Translations under genes and position numbers: made by a program | Source: Anaeromyxobacter paludicola | GTDB lineage: Bacteria; Myxococcota; Myxococcia; Myxococcales; Anaeromyxobacteraceae | NCBI RefSeq assembly: GCF_023169965.1 | Contig: NZ_AP025592.1 | Span: 3,844,001 to 3,908,000 of the forward strand | DNA: 64,000 nt | Direction: 5' to 3' | Shown: positions 11,581-15,669 of the stretch, piece by piece | How the letters are laid out: each line of letters starts with the position of its first letter | How positions within the stretch are numbered: position 1 is the stretch's first letter | Notes under the pieces: model-generated | Databases searched by the model: none | Seen by the model: only the letters and a program-made list of their open reading frames with translations | Told to the model about the DNA's origin: nothing

Positions 11581-13854
11581 TCACCTGCCGGCGGCCGGGG
11601 GGATGGGCACCGGCCGGGCGGCGTCGCCCGCCGGGAGCGGCGAGAGCGCGGGCGCCGCCTGGACCTTCCTCCGCTCGTCGAGGCGGGCCGAGAGGGCCAC
11701 GGCGCGGGCGGCCCGGGTCGGGTTCGGGTCGGCGAGGGCGCGGCGCAGCGCGGCCGGGAACGGGTGCTCCTCGTCGCCGTCGCGCGCGAGCCCTCGCGCC
11801 AGCGCCGCCAGCCCGGCGTCGGCGGCGGCCGGCTCGGCCGCGAGCAGGGCGAAGAGCAGCTCGTCCGGCGCGGTCCGGCCCACCTCGGCGAGCGCATCGG
11901 CGTAGGCCTCGGCGAGCGCGGGCGAGGCCGAGGTCTCGGGCGCGAGCGCCAGGAGCCGCTCCATCGGCTCCGCCTCCCCCTCGGCGGCGAGGTCGGCGAG
12001 CGAGCCCACGAGCGGCGCCGGCACCTCCGGGGTGGTGAGCGCCCGCAGGCGGGGGAAGCCCGCGCGGGCGTCCACGGCCGCCGCGTCGAGGAGCGCGCGG
12101 CGCCCGGAGCCGGAGGCGGTGTCCGACAGGAAGATGGCCTCGGCGGCGGCGAGCCGGAGCGCCGGATCGCGCTCGGCGGCGAACGCCGTGCGGAGCTCCG
12201 GCAGGTTGCGCGGATCGCCGGCGCGACCGAGCTCCTGGTAGCGGGCCACGCGCGCCCGGGCCTCGGGCTCGGACAGCTCCTCCGCCGCCGCGGGCGCCTC
12301 CGCCAGGGCCACCGCCGCGCCGAGCTCCGAGGGCCGGCCGGCGCCGGCGAGCGCCGCGCCGAGCGCGTCCACGCCCCGCACCACCGCGTGGGTGCGGCCG
12401 GGGAAGTCGTTCACGAAGATGGCGAAGGCGAGGTGCTCGTGCGCGGCGGTCTCCACGTAGCCGGAGAGGCTGCGGACGCCGTCGAGGGTGCCGGTCTTGG
12501 CGCGCAGGCGGCCGACCGCGTCGGTGCCCCACATCCGCCAGCGGATGGTGCCGTCCTTGCCGGCCACCGGGAGCGCGCCGACGTACTCGGCGGCGAGGGG
12601 GAAGCGGCGCCACATCGCGCCGAGCAGGGTGACGGTCTGGCGGGCGGTGAAGCGGTTGGCGTCGTTCAGGCCCGAGCCGTTGCGCATCTGGTACCCGCCG
12701 CGCGGGATGCCCGCCTCGGCGAGGAAGTCCTGGATGGCCTCGATCCCCTTGGGCCACGAGCCCGGAGCGCCCTTCACCTGCGCCCCCAGCGTCTTCACGA
12801 GCTGCTCGGCGATGAAGTTGTTCGAGTGCTTCTGGAGCGTGCGCACGATCTCGGCGAGCTCGTCGGACTGGGCGAGGTAGACGAGCCGCGCCGCCGGGGG
12901 CACGCGGCCGGCCCGCACCTGGCCCGTGACGCGGACGCCGCGGAGCTCCAGCATGCGCTTGAGGGTGTGGCCGAAGTAGAGGGTCGGGTCGCCGATCTTC
13001 CGGTAGAAGACCTGGTCGCCGCCGTTGAGCGGCAGGCGCCCGGTGACCGTGATCCGCTCGAGCCCGCCCTGCAGGCTCGAGGAGGGGACCACCCGGCGCC
13101 GGGCGCGCGCCCGCGCGGTGACGGTGCGGTTGTCGAGCGTGAAGAAGTCGCTCGCCGGCTCGAGCTCCACCCGGCCCCGCGCCTTCGGCTTCGGCCCGCC
13201 CGCCACGTGGATGGCGACGGCGTTGAAGTTGAGCGAGAGCGCGCCGGTGGGCGCGAGGTAGGCACGGTCCCCGTGCTCCTGGTCGTAGCCGGGCCCCTCG
13301 CGCTGCTCGTCGAACCAGGAGTCGTCGAGGACGAGGTCGCCCTTCACCGTGCGGATCCCGCGGTGGGCCAGCTCGCCGGCGATGGCGTAGAGCCGCTCGG
13401 TCACCATCGAGGGGTCGCCCTTGCCGCGGACGTAGAGGGCGCGCACCGTCTCGGCGGCGCCGGGCTCGGCGTAGAACTCGGTCTCGAAGCGGAACTCGGG
13501 GCCGAGCCGCGCCAGCGCCGCGGCCGCGGTGAAGAGCTTCACGTTCGACGCGGGGTTGAAGAGGTCGTCGGCGTTCCGCGCGAAGAGGAGCTGGCCCGAG
13601 TCGAGGGAGACGACCGCGACGCCGGTGCGGGTCCGGCGCAGCGCGCTCGTGCCGAGGATCCGCGTGAGCGCCTGGGCGAGCTGCGCGGCGCCCTCGCCCT
13701 GGAGCGCGGAGGCGGCCGCTGGCGCGGCGGCGGGCGGGCGGTCGGCCGGGGCGGCGGGAACGGCGGGAGCGGCCGGCGCGGCGGCCGAGGCGGGGAGGGC
13801 GAGGGCGAGGGCGAGGGCGGCGACCGCGGCGGGTCGGAGCGGGACGGTGGACAC
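11581..13854 (-). CDS. dacB: D-alanyl-D-alanine carboxypeptidase/endopeptidase (PBP4, S13) with long C-terminal extension
   Basis: 757 aa from GTG 13854, which gives a proper signal peptide (STVPLRPAAVAALALALALP). An Ala/Pro linker precedes the S13 penicillin-binding domain (about 55-510): SNVK is the serine motif S-x-x-K, SNN in LQKHSNNFIAEQLVK the second motif, and KTGT in RLRAKTGTLDG the third. E. coli DacB is about 477 aa. Here about 230 further residues follow, an Ala/Leu/Glu-rich helical region with HEAT-like pairs (for example DPALRLAAAEAIFL and DPNPTRAARAVALSARL). They may form a protein-interaction solenoid. Acts in the periplasm on peptidoglycan cross-links. Starts divergently from the Fur-controlled unit. 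Confidence 0.9.
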   Translation of the reverse strand: MSTVPLRPAAVAALALALALPASAAAPAAPAVPAAPADRPPAAAPAAASALQGEGAAQLAQALTRILGTSALRRTRTGVAVVSLDSGQLLFARNADDLFNPASNVKLFTAAAALARLGPEFRFETEFYAEPGAAETVRALYVRGKGDPSMVTERLYAIAGELAHRGIRTVKGDLVLDDSWFDEQREGPGYDQEHGDRAYLAPTGALSLNFNAVAIHVAGGPKPKARGRVELEPASDFFTLDNRTVTARARARRRVVPSSSLQGGLERITVTGRLPLNGGDQVFYRKIGDPTLYFGHTLKRMLELRGVRVTGQVRAGRVPPAARLVYLAQSDELAEIVRTLQKHSNNFIAEQLVKTLGAQVKGAPGSWPKGIEAIQDFLAEAGIPRGGYQMRNGSGLNDANRFTARQTVTLLGAMWRRFPLAAEYVGALPVAGKDGTIRWRMWGTDAVGRLRAKTGTLDGVRSLSGYVETAAHEHLAFAIFVNDFPGRTHAVVRGVDALGAALAGAGRPSELGAAVALAEAPAAAEELSEPEARARVARYQELGRAGDPRNLPELRTAFAAERDPALRLAAAEAIFLSDTASGSGRRALLDAAAVDARAGFPRLRALTTPEVPAPLVGSLADLAAEGEAEPMERLLALAPETSASPALAEAYADALAEVGRTAPDELLFALLAAEPAAADAGLAALARGLARDGDEEHPFPAALRRALADPNPTRAARAVALSARLDERRKVQAAPALSPLPAGDAARPVPIPPAAGR

Positions 13855-13965
13855 GATTCTCTTTCTCGCACGGCCGCAGGGCGGCAGGCAGGGCGGGCGG
13901 TGCGGGGGCGGCACCCCTGCAACCCTTCGACCCGCTGGGGTATTTCCAGCCGGTGCCGGGCCCGG

Positions 13966-13995
13966 TTGACAGGCCGCCCTTTAAGGGGATAGGTT
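13966..13995 (+). promoter_or_regulatory. Sigma-70-type promoter of the zinc-ribbon/porin unit
   Basis: A consensus -35 TTGACA (13966-13971) and a weak -10 TAGGTT (13990-13995), spacing 18. The Fur box begins 11 bases beyond the -10, where it would block initiation or early elongation. Confidence 0.5.
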
Positions 13996-14005
13996 GGCGC
14001 CACTT

Positions 14006-14032
14006 CGGTAATGAGAATGAGTCTCAATACCG
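14006..14032. promoter_or_regulatory. Fur box (iron-responsive operator)
   Basis: CGGTAATGAGA-ATGAG-TCTCAATACCG is an inverted repeat with 10 of 11 arm positions paired. Its core TGAGAATGAGTCTCA (14012-14026) fits the Fur 7-1-7 pattern TGAxAATxATTxTCA, and 14 of 19 bases match the classical 19-bp Fur box (14007-14025). It is strikingly AT-rich for this genome and lies directly after a TTGACA promoter. Expected effect: repression of the zinc-ribbon and porin genes when iron is plentiful. Confidence 0.75.
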
Positions 14033-14049
14033 AAAATTGGAGCGCGCCC

Positions 14050-14229
14050 ATGCCGACCCTGCAGCCCGACCGCGCCGTCAGCCCCAAGCTCCGCCGCCCC
14101 TGCGCCGACCACGGCGACCTCCGGTGTGGCTGCGGCAGCCTGCTCGCCCGCGTGGTGGGGGAGACGGTCGAGCTGAAGTGCCGGCGCTGCAAGCAGACCT
14201 GGCGCATCCCCATCCAGCCGGCGCACTAG
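14050..14229 (+). CDS. Small Com-like zinc-ribbon protein
   Basis: 59 aa from ATG 14050. An ATG at 14011 is in frame but lies inside the Fur box, so the shorter start is favoured. The body holds four Cys in the order CGC...CRRC (LRCGCGSLLARV, then VELKCRRCKQTWRIP), as in the Mu Com-type zinc-ribbon family (Com regulates mom translation in phage Mu by binding mRNA). Here the gene is not in a prophage: it sits behind a Fur box and 57 bases before a porin gene. An RNA-binding regulatory role is inference from the family; a simple structural zinc finger is equally possible. Confidence 0.7.
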   Translation: MPTLQPDRAVSPKLRRPCADHGDLRCGCGSLLARVVGETVELKCRRCKQTWRIPIQPAH

Positions 14230-14286
14230 CCTTCCCCCAAGGCCAGCGGTCGCGAACCCCGAGCCCGACCCCTCCCGACCGTCCCC

Positions 14287-15669
14287 ATGCCGACCCGCCC
14301 TCCGCGCCTCCTCGGCGCCGCCCTCCTCCTCGCCTCGCTCCTCGCCCCCCTCGCCGCCCTCGCCGAGCCCTCGCCCGTCGGCGAGCGGCCCGCGCTCGGC
14401 CAGGGCGCGCCCGCTCCGGCCGCCGGCGAGCCCTCCCCCTGGACCGCGAGCTTCCAGAGCACCTACGTCCTGCAGCGGAAGGCCGGCTTCCAGGCCGCCT
14501 ACACCGGGCCGAACAGCCTCGTGACCGCGCCGGAGACCGGCTACACGCTCACCGCCACGCTCTTCCTCGGCGTGCGCCCGTGGCCGGGGGCCGAGCTCTT
14601 CGTGAACCCGGAGGTGATCCAGAGCCAGGACCTGTCGCACCTCGCCGGCCTCGGCGGGCTCTCGAACGGCGAGAACCAGAAGTCGGGCGGCCCGCTGCCG
14701 ACGCTCTACCGGGCGCGGGCGTTCCTGCGCCAGAGCTTCGCGCTCGGCGGCGCCGAGTCGCGCGTGGACGCCGGGCCGAACCAGGTCGCGGGGACCGTGG
14801 CGAGCCGGCGGCTCGTCCTCACCGCCGGCAACTTCGCCGTGGCCGACGTCTTCGACCAGAACGCGCTCGCGCACGATCCCCGCACCCAGTTCCTCAACTG
14901 GTCGCTCATGGGCTACGGCGCCTCGGACTACGCCGCCGACGTGCGCGGCTACACGGTGGGGCTCGCGCTCGAGTGGTACTGGGACGCCTGGGCCGTCCGC
15001 GCCGGGCGCTTCGCGCAGCCGGAGGAGTCGAACGGGCTGCCGCTCGACCTCGACCTCTGGCGCCACTACGGCGACGTGCTGGAGGTGGAGCACGCGCACG
15101 AGCTGTTCGGCCAGCCGGGGAAGGTGCGCGTCACCGGCTTCCACAACCGGGCGCGCATGGGCGCCTTCCGGGACGCGCTCGCCTACGCCGCGGCGCACGG
15201 CGGGCCGCCCTCGGTCGCCGACGTGCGGCGGGAGCAGTCGAAGTACGCGCTCGGGATCGGCCTCGAGCAGGGGCTCCTCGAGGACGTCGCCGCCTTCGCC
15301 CGCTACAGCCTCAACGACGGCCGCACCGAGACCTACGCCTTCGCCGAGATCGAGCGGTCCTTCACGGCGGGCGTGGTGGTGAAGGGGCGCCCCTGGCGGC
15401 GCGAGGGCGACACCCTCGGCGTGGCGGTCGCCGTGAACGGCCTCTCCGACGACCACCGCGACTACCTCGCCGCGGGCGGCACCGGCTTCCTCATCGGCGA
15501 CGGGCGGCTCAACGCCCGGACCGAGCAGATCGTCGAGGCCTACTACAGCCTGCGCGCCTTCCCGGGGCTCTGGTTCACGGCGGACGCCCAGCACATCGCC
15601 AACCCGGCCTACAACGCCGACCGCGGGCCGGTGAACATCGTGGGGTGCCGGGTGCACGTGGAGTACTAG
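14287..15669 (+). CDS. OprB-type carbohydrate-selective porin family protein
   Basis: 460 aa. Signal peptide MPTRPPRLLGAALLLASLLA, then a short Pro/Ala linker and an outer-membrane beta-barrel. Family-typical features include WTASFQSTYVLQRKAGFQAA, VFDQNALAHDPRTQFLNW near the middle, YTVGLALEWYWDAWAVRAG, and a C-terminal strand ending VGCRVHVEY with a terminal aromatic residue, as required for BAM insertion. OprB proteins normally admit sugars, but control by a Fur box suggests uptake of an iron- or metal-related compound here. Probably co-transcribed with the zinc ribbon. A type B repeat follows the gene. Confidence 0.85.
   Translation: MPTRPPRLLGAALLLASLLAPLAALAEPSPVGERPALGQGAPAPAAGEPSPWTASFQSTYVLQRKAGFQAAYTGPNSLVTAPETGYTLTATLFLGVRPWPGAELFVNPEVIQSQDLSHLAGLGGLSNGENQKSGGPLPTLYRARAFLRQSFALGGAESRVDAGPNQVAGTVASRRLVLTAGNFAVADVFDQNALAHDPRTQFLNWSLMGYGASDYAADVRGYTVGLALEWYWDAWAVRAGRFAQPEESNGLPLDLDLWRHYGDVLEVEHAHELFGQPGKVRVTGFHNRARMGAFRDALAYAAAHGGPPSVADVRREQSKYALGIGLEQGLLEDVAAFARYSLNDGRTETYAFAEIERSFTAGVVVKGRPWRREGDTLGVAVAVNGLSDDHRDYLAAGGTGFLIGDGRLNARTEQIVEAYYSLRAFPGLWFTADAQHIANPAYNADRGPVNIVGCRVHVEY

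Follow-up and report, generated by a model that had tools for sequence, protein, structure and literature searches.

A chromosomal, Fur-controlled protein resembling phage Com probably activates iron-uptake genes through a conserved RNA hairpin, in a feed-forward circuit for iron starvation, as judged from comparisons of sequences. The window, the 64-kb stretch of DNA that was analysed (3844001–3908000 of a genome assembled as a single 4.59-Mb contig), carried one such unit, with these features:

13966–13995, + strand: promoter-like TTGACA-18-TAGGTT, read directly; the spacing recurs in relatives by eye
14004–14034, + strand: Fur-type palindrome with a 19-bp core at 14010–14028, from a consensus scan and like boxes at other ribbon loci
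14050–14229, + strand: Com-like zinc ribbon of 59 aa (RCGCG..LLAR..VELKCRRCK), from the family alignment and profiles
14241–14265, + strand: conserved RNA hairpin, covariance model, 48.7 bits
14241–14243/14263–14265, 14248–14250/14256–14258 and 14251–14255, + strand: hairpin stems P1 and P2 and its loop (CGCGA), respectively
14287–15669, + strand: OprB-family porin of 460 aa, Pfam PF04966, E 6.4e-40

The TTGACA hexamer, Fur-type palindrome, 59-aa zinc ribbon and OprB porin of the original prediction were thus all present, and the porin was confirmed by a score of 138.1 bits against PF04966 (cut-off 22.9). The 3′ end of the hairpin was 21 nt from the porin ATG. The unit was divergent from a gene (11581–13914) for a PBP4/DacB-type carboxypeptidase, which had a long C-terminal extension beyond its Pfam domain.

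The window ribbon alone matched Com-type PHROGs weakly (E 0.078). Among 50 family members, 39 were matched by the gpCom PHROG (phrog_13819, best E 3.6e-5) and three by the Pfam Com model PF10122 (best E 0.0041), and hhalign aligned the ribbon family with Mu Com at E 3e-6, so the match to Com-type PHROGs was weak for this copy by itself and clear for the family, and the ribbon is probably Com-like, as had been proposed. All 50 members had four invariant cysteines in the order CxC...CxxC; the first knuckle was CxC and not the CxxC of the CxxC...CxxC zinc ribbon criterion of Com. A fold search with an AlphaFold model of the ribbon (pLDDT 72) gave no match with E ≤ 0.001, and a PDB sequence search gave nothing convincing. 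The family alignment was used to scan for ribbon loci, and 69 were named in records of Myxococcus, Corallococcus, Sorangium, Anaeromyxobacter, Syntrophobacter, Binatia, Nitrospirota and Elusimicrobia; this set was biased to close members because the peptide VELKCRRC or [DE][LV]RCGCG[SNC]L was required. The ribbon profile matched 59 of 195 Myxococcota genomes. Ribbons were rare in the group around genome G195 (7/345 genomes).

The promoter was upheld in part: TTGACA was at 13966–13971 with TAGGTT 18 nt further on (13990–13995), and TTGAC with a TA-rich −10, 17–18 nt apart, was seen by eye ahead of several relatives' ribbons, but a strict sigma-70 scan called no promoter. The palindrome predicted at 14006–14032 (27 bp) extended to 14004–14034, with 26 of 31 positions equal to the reverse complement. 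Its core had two mismatches to AATGAGAATNATTCTCATT and was the only match with three or fewer mismatches in the 64 kb (none expected by shuffling); the box covered the start region of the ribbon gene. When a consensus of our own choice, built from the family boxes, was searched for in the 220 nt upstream of ribbons, at least 12 of 18 positions matched at 47 of the 69 loci and in 31 of 1829 control segments taken from the same loci. The uniqueness of the box in the window and the like boxes elsewhere suggest that the ribbon gene, and with it the unit, is Fur-controlled, as had been proposed. At three loci (L031, L032 and L033, in G005, G009 and G006, respectively) an ATG was within the Fur-type box, and a near-leaderless ribbon start is possible there. 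In the available part of a 2022 paper, the Fur regulon of Myxococcus was termed unidentified (PMC9738627).

Whether the ribbon and OprB form a conserved pair had also been raised, and such a pair was not borne out. Among 24 family genomes, ribbons were found in nine and OprB homologues in seven; the two genes were adjacent in only two (G000, the genome of the window, and G012, both of one genus), were on different contigs in G010, and six ribbon genomes had no OprB match. A link between Fur and OprB is not new, because the accessible text of a 2004 study reported a Fur-box OprB porin beside feoAB in Geobacter (PMC545781). Neighbouring genes were scored by tblastn with queries taken from the ribbon loci themselves, and at least one queried gene (iron-uptake and others) was found at 63 of the 69 loci. 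Downstream on the same strand were genes for a coiled-coil porin-like protein (26 loci), a TonB-dependent receptor (23), a PBP2-type binding protein (19), ApbE (16), FeoB (3) and OprB (1); upstream were Fur (12), FTR1 permease (7) and FeoB (5). Judged from this gene order, the conserved grouping is ribbon, hairpin and some iron-uptake gene. Pfam backed the labels FeoA, FeoB, FUR, ExbB, ExbD, ApbE, FTR1, TonB receptor and PBP2; the coiled-coil protein had no significant porin match in Pfam, and its label was given by inference.

A recurrent Fur-linked operon was headed by the coiled-coil porin-like protein (L163:2096–4230, L103, L107, L108 and L151–L153), followed by a secreted protein of ~185 aa and a membrane protein of ~170–190 aa without a Pfam match, and then ApbE. 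It looks like an undescribed flavin-dependent system for iron uptake or reduction. At L111:2567–4516, the gene immediately upstream of the ribbon encoded a fusion of an FTR1 iron permease with cytochrome c domains.

By comparing the DNA 3′ of the ribbon in family genomes, a shared element, AGCGGTCGNGAACCCNGAGCC, was found. At least 15 of its 19 positions matched within 260 nt 3′ of the ribbon at 22 of 69 loci and in 4 of 1769 control segments; the pattern was derived from four family genomes, three of which are among both the 22 and the 69. Aligned copies formed a hairpin with stems GGC/GCC and GGY/RCC; in an Elusimicrobia copy P2 was AAC/GUU. Among 28 copies, standard pairs filled 99.4% of the pair cells, 12 were double-change cells, and the covariation score was 0.253 against 0.146 in shuffles (0/500 as high). 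In 58 copies (52 distinct), whose alignment was fitted to the hairpin model, there were 27 double-change cells and the score was 0.233 against 0.136. The pairs C10-G36 and G12-C34 were invariant in this alignment. The internal mismatch between these two pairs (columns 11 and 35) was CxA in 22 copies, AxC in 19, AxA in 16 and AxG in one, and never CxC; this reciprocal A/C exchange is possibly a non-canonical pair read by the protein.

Single hairpin copies were no more stable than shuffled sequence, so the hairpin is supported by its covariation and placement and not by folding energy. A simple pattern search of the window's own genome was uninformative (one exact site; 82 sites with three or fewer mismatches against 54 in a reversed control), so a covariance model was needed. 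Rfam gave no match at gathering thresholds for the window and nine loci, and at relaxed E one weak chance miRNA match on the other strand. If our reading holds, the hairpin would represent an RNA family that is new and has no entry in Rfam 15.

The hairpin was closely linked to the ribbon. Model R1 (E ≤ 0.1) matched 63 of 195 Myxococcota genomes, and a hairpin on the same strand was located 12–295 nt 3′ of 53 of the 59 Myxococcota ribbons. Hairpins of at least 34 bits were detected in 50 of the 59 ribbon genomes and in none of the 136 ribbon-less ones (Fisher 1e-37); since the training copies of models R1 and R2 adjoined ribbons, those of R1 partly in the counted genomes, the cis rate follows to some extent from the training, and the ribbon-less count is unaffected. 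Among the 69 named loci, 51 had a cis copy in the selected set of hairpins, five more had a weak one, and 13 had none by the model. The model found no hairpin in ribbon genomes G300, G074 and G193. In the 345 genomes around G195, ribbons were found in seven and hairpins in six, of which three coincided beside the ribbon. At E ≤ 0.05 the hairpin was found in three of the seven ribbon genomes, and a fourth (G262) had one by eye. A second sample of this group overlapped the first and thus gave no independent test.

There were seven hairpin matches in ribbon-less Myxococcota genomes, all below 34 bits and with no Fur box noticed. Six of these were rejected as lying inside called coding sequence (the one in G041 may precede a start codon, by eye), and the seventh (G045), 9 nt before a called start, appeared by eye to be within the reading frame. 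Three weak matches in ribbon-less genomes of the G195 group were also set aside: of the places that could be located, those in L229 and L230 were in coding sequence, that in L231 was outside called genes, and no leader was convincing. A 28.3-bit match in ribbon-less G004 was 5′ of a gene and had no Fur box.

The hairpin loop resembled the target of phage Com. As described in the available sections of a study of Com (PMC6483171), GAG(N)2CC repeats are selected by the H. sputorum protein, which binds the loop form CC(N)2–3GAG; the hairpin has a closing C-G pair and precedes the start of mom, and the GA dinucleotide is protected. The likeness was noticed after our hairpin model was built. Loop and closing pair read YC(N)2–3GAR in 43 of the 58 copies, against 1.7 expected after shuffling of the loop letters; the exact CC(N)2–3GAG was present in 26 and UC(N)2–3GAA, the form in the window, in 17. 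In the Mu record AF083977, com is followed by the hairpin GC[CUGCGA]GC (site GCCTGCGAGC) and then mom; this site scored 3.7 bits against the hairpin model, sharing the loop alone. The covarying hairpin, its linkage to the ribbon and the Com-like loop make control at the RNA level, which the original prediction had raised for the porin, likely.

A terminator-like stem starting in the 3′ strand of the hairpin was found in 11 of 58 copies, against 29 of 1160 in shuffles, and nine of the 11 looked convincing. In all nine, RNAfold favoured the terminator, in which P1 is broken, and the lower terminator stem was lost when P1 was forced. The two structures are thus predicted to be mutually exclusive, and read-through should be possible when a protein holds the hairpin. 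No terminator was detected in GC-rich genomes, including that of the window. As a general platform, base pairing between hairpin and start region was rejected (44 loci, mean z 0.19, two below −1.64); in the window this pairing was moderately stronger than in shuffles (z −1.9, p 0.06), which is too weak to claim.

These terminators bear on the sign of the regulation. The ribbon could bind the hairpin as a repressor, so that excess ribbon would shut off iron-uptake genes in a negative feedback. The cis copies within the ribbon's own mRNA would suit such autogenous control, but at the nine terminator copies binding to the hairpin should favour read-through, and phage Com is an activator in the text available to us (PMC6483171); we consider a repressor unlikely.

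Even less probable is that the hairpin is a riboswitch for iron, heme, flavin or the like, in which case the ribbon would be one more Fur-controlled gene with an unrelated function. Varied expression platforms (a terminator in nine copies and none elsewhere) and the iron theme common to the downstream genes would agree with it. Yet hairpins of at least 34 bits were missing from all 136 ribbon-less Myxococcota genomes; moreover, ~25 nt is small, Rfam gave no match, and the loop matches the Com site as far as this is given in the part of the source at hand.

Hairpin copies also occurred in trans. In G010, whose ribbon is on a different contig, a hairpin (L034) was found 37 nt before an OprB gene, and a Fur box was not found in this leader. 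At L200 (G005) and L234 (G009), a Fur-type box (14/18 and 13/18, respectively) was followed after 6 nt by the hairpin and then by genes for an outer-membrane-like protein, FeoA, FeoA and FeoB, and the ribbon was a separate Fur-box gene elsewhere in both genomes. Two further copies belonged to neither training set: on a Binatia chromosome (L216), a box (16/18) and hairpin preceded a porin-like gene, the hairpin at 3496335 being ~2.5 Mb from the ribbon at 952562, and in Sorangium (L217) a box (14/18) and hairpin were followed ~0.5 kb further by a gene for a chorismate-binding enzyme. At L146, a second hairpin, with a terminator, was located before ExbB-ExbD. Since the element is 3′ of the ribbon and able to double as a terminator, it might instead mark the 3′ end or a processing site of the ribbon mRNA, or be an sRNA site, in either case unrelated to the ribbon protein. 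This is highly improbable, given that the trans copies are in the 5′ leaders of iron genes other than the ribbon's own, in many cases right behind a Fur box.

The genome of the window had an intact second hairpin at C1:3321402–3321438 (L194, G000:C1:3318500–3323500). The gene after it was outer-membrane-like, homologous to the L200 gene (54% over 80 aa), and its frame appeared broken after ~106 codons.

In the favoured activation circuit, Fur would leave its box when iron drops, and the ribbon would be made. The ribbon would then bind the hairpin in its own operon mRNA and in other mRNAs and switch on the genes downstream. At the nine copies overlapping terminators this may occur by antitermination; at copies without one, as in the window, the ribbon would probably help translation, as Com does for mom. 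The window porin would thus be controlled twice, by Fur at the level of the promoter and by the ribbon at that of the RNA, and, more speculatively, the zinc site might serve as a second metal input. A wider reading is more tentative, and we hold it to be possible rather than probable: the Fur-controlled Com-like protein would be an RNA antiterminator or translation activator that works both in cis and in trans on a widespread regulon of porins, TonB receptors, FeoAB and siderophore genes, with the zinc site as second metal input, and phage Com would be one member of a larger family of RNA switches found mainly in cells. To our knowledge, Com has so far been treated as a phage curiosity with a single target. 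If the activation reading holds, the chromosomes of Myxococcota and several other lineages would encode Com-like iron regulators whose RNA target is defined, and an RNA layer would be added beneath Fur in bacteria such as Myxococcus.

Several known systems share parts of this arrangement. In BglG/LicT antiterminators, as here, the regulator gene adjoins a hairpin whose formation in the RNA prevents that of a terminator; in contrast to them, our loci have no sugar system, and the CAT RNA-binding domain was not among the Pfam matches of the 50 ribbon members. HemP/HmuP are small Fur-linked proteins encoded before heme receptor genes, and thus resemble the ribbon in being ahead of an outer-membrane receptor gene, but the ribbon is a zinc ribbon and showed no HemP match in the Pfam search. 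In the open-access literature, to which our search was confined, no paper on a chromosomal Com-like iron regulator or on this hairpin was found. The Fur-regulon porins of delta-proteobacteria (Rodionov 2004, PMC545781) share the Fur box, OprB or another porin and feoAB; the available portion of that paper mentions neither ribbon nor RNA element. The closest likeness in layout is to Com/mom of phage Mu, with a small four-Cys ribbon, com directly before its target gene and, going by the accessible part of the source, a hairpin with a CC(N)2–3GAG loop between the two. Unlike com, the genes described here are chromosomal, apparently Fur-controlled and linked to iron genes, and their products have a CxC first knuckle; their hairpin has a two-tier bulged stem, occurs also in trans and overlaps a terminator in nine copies.
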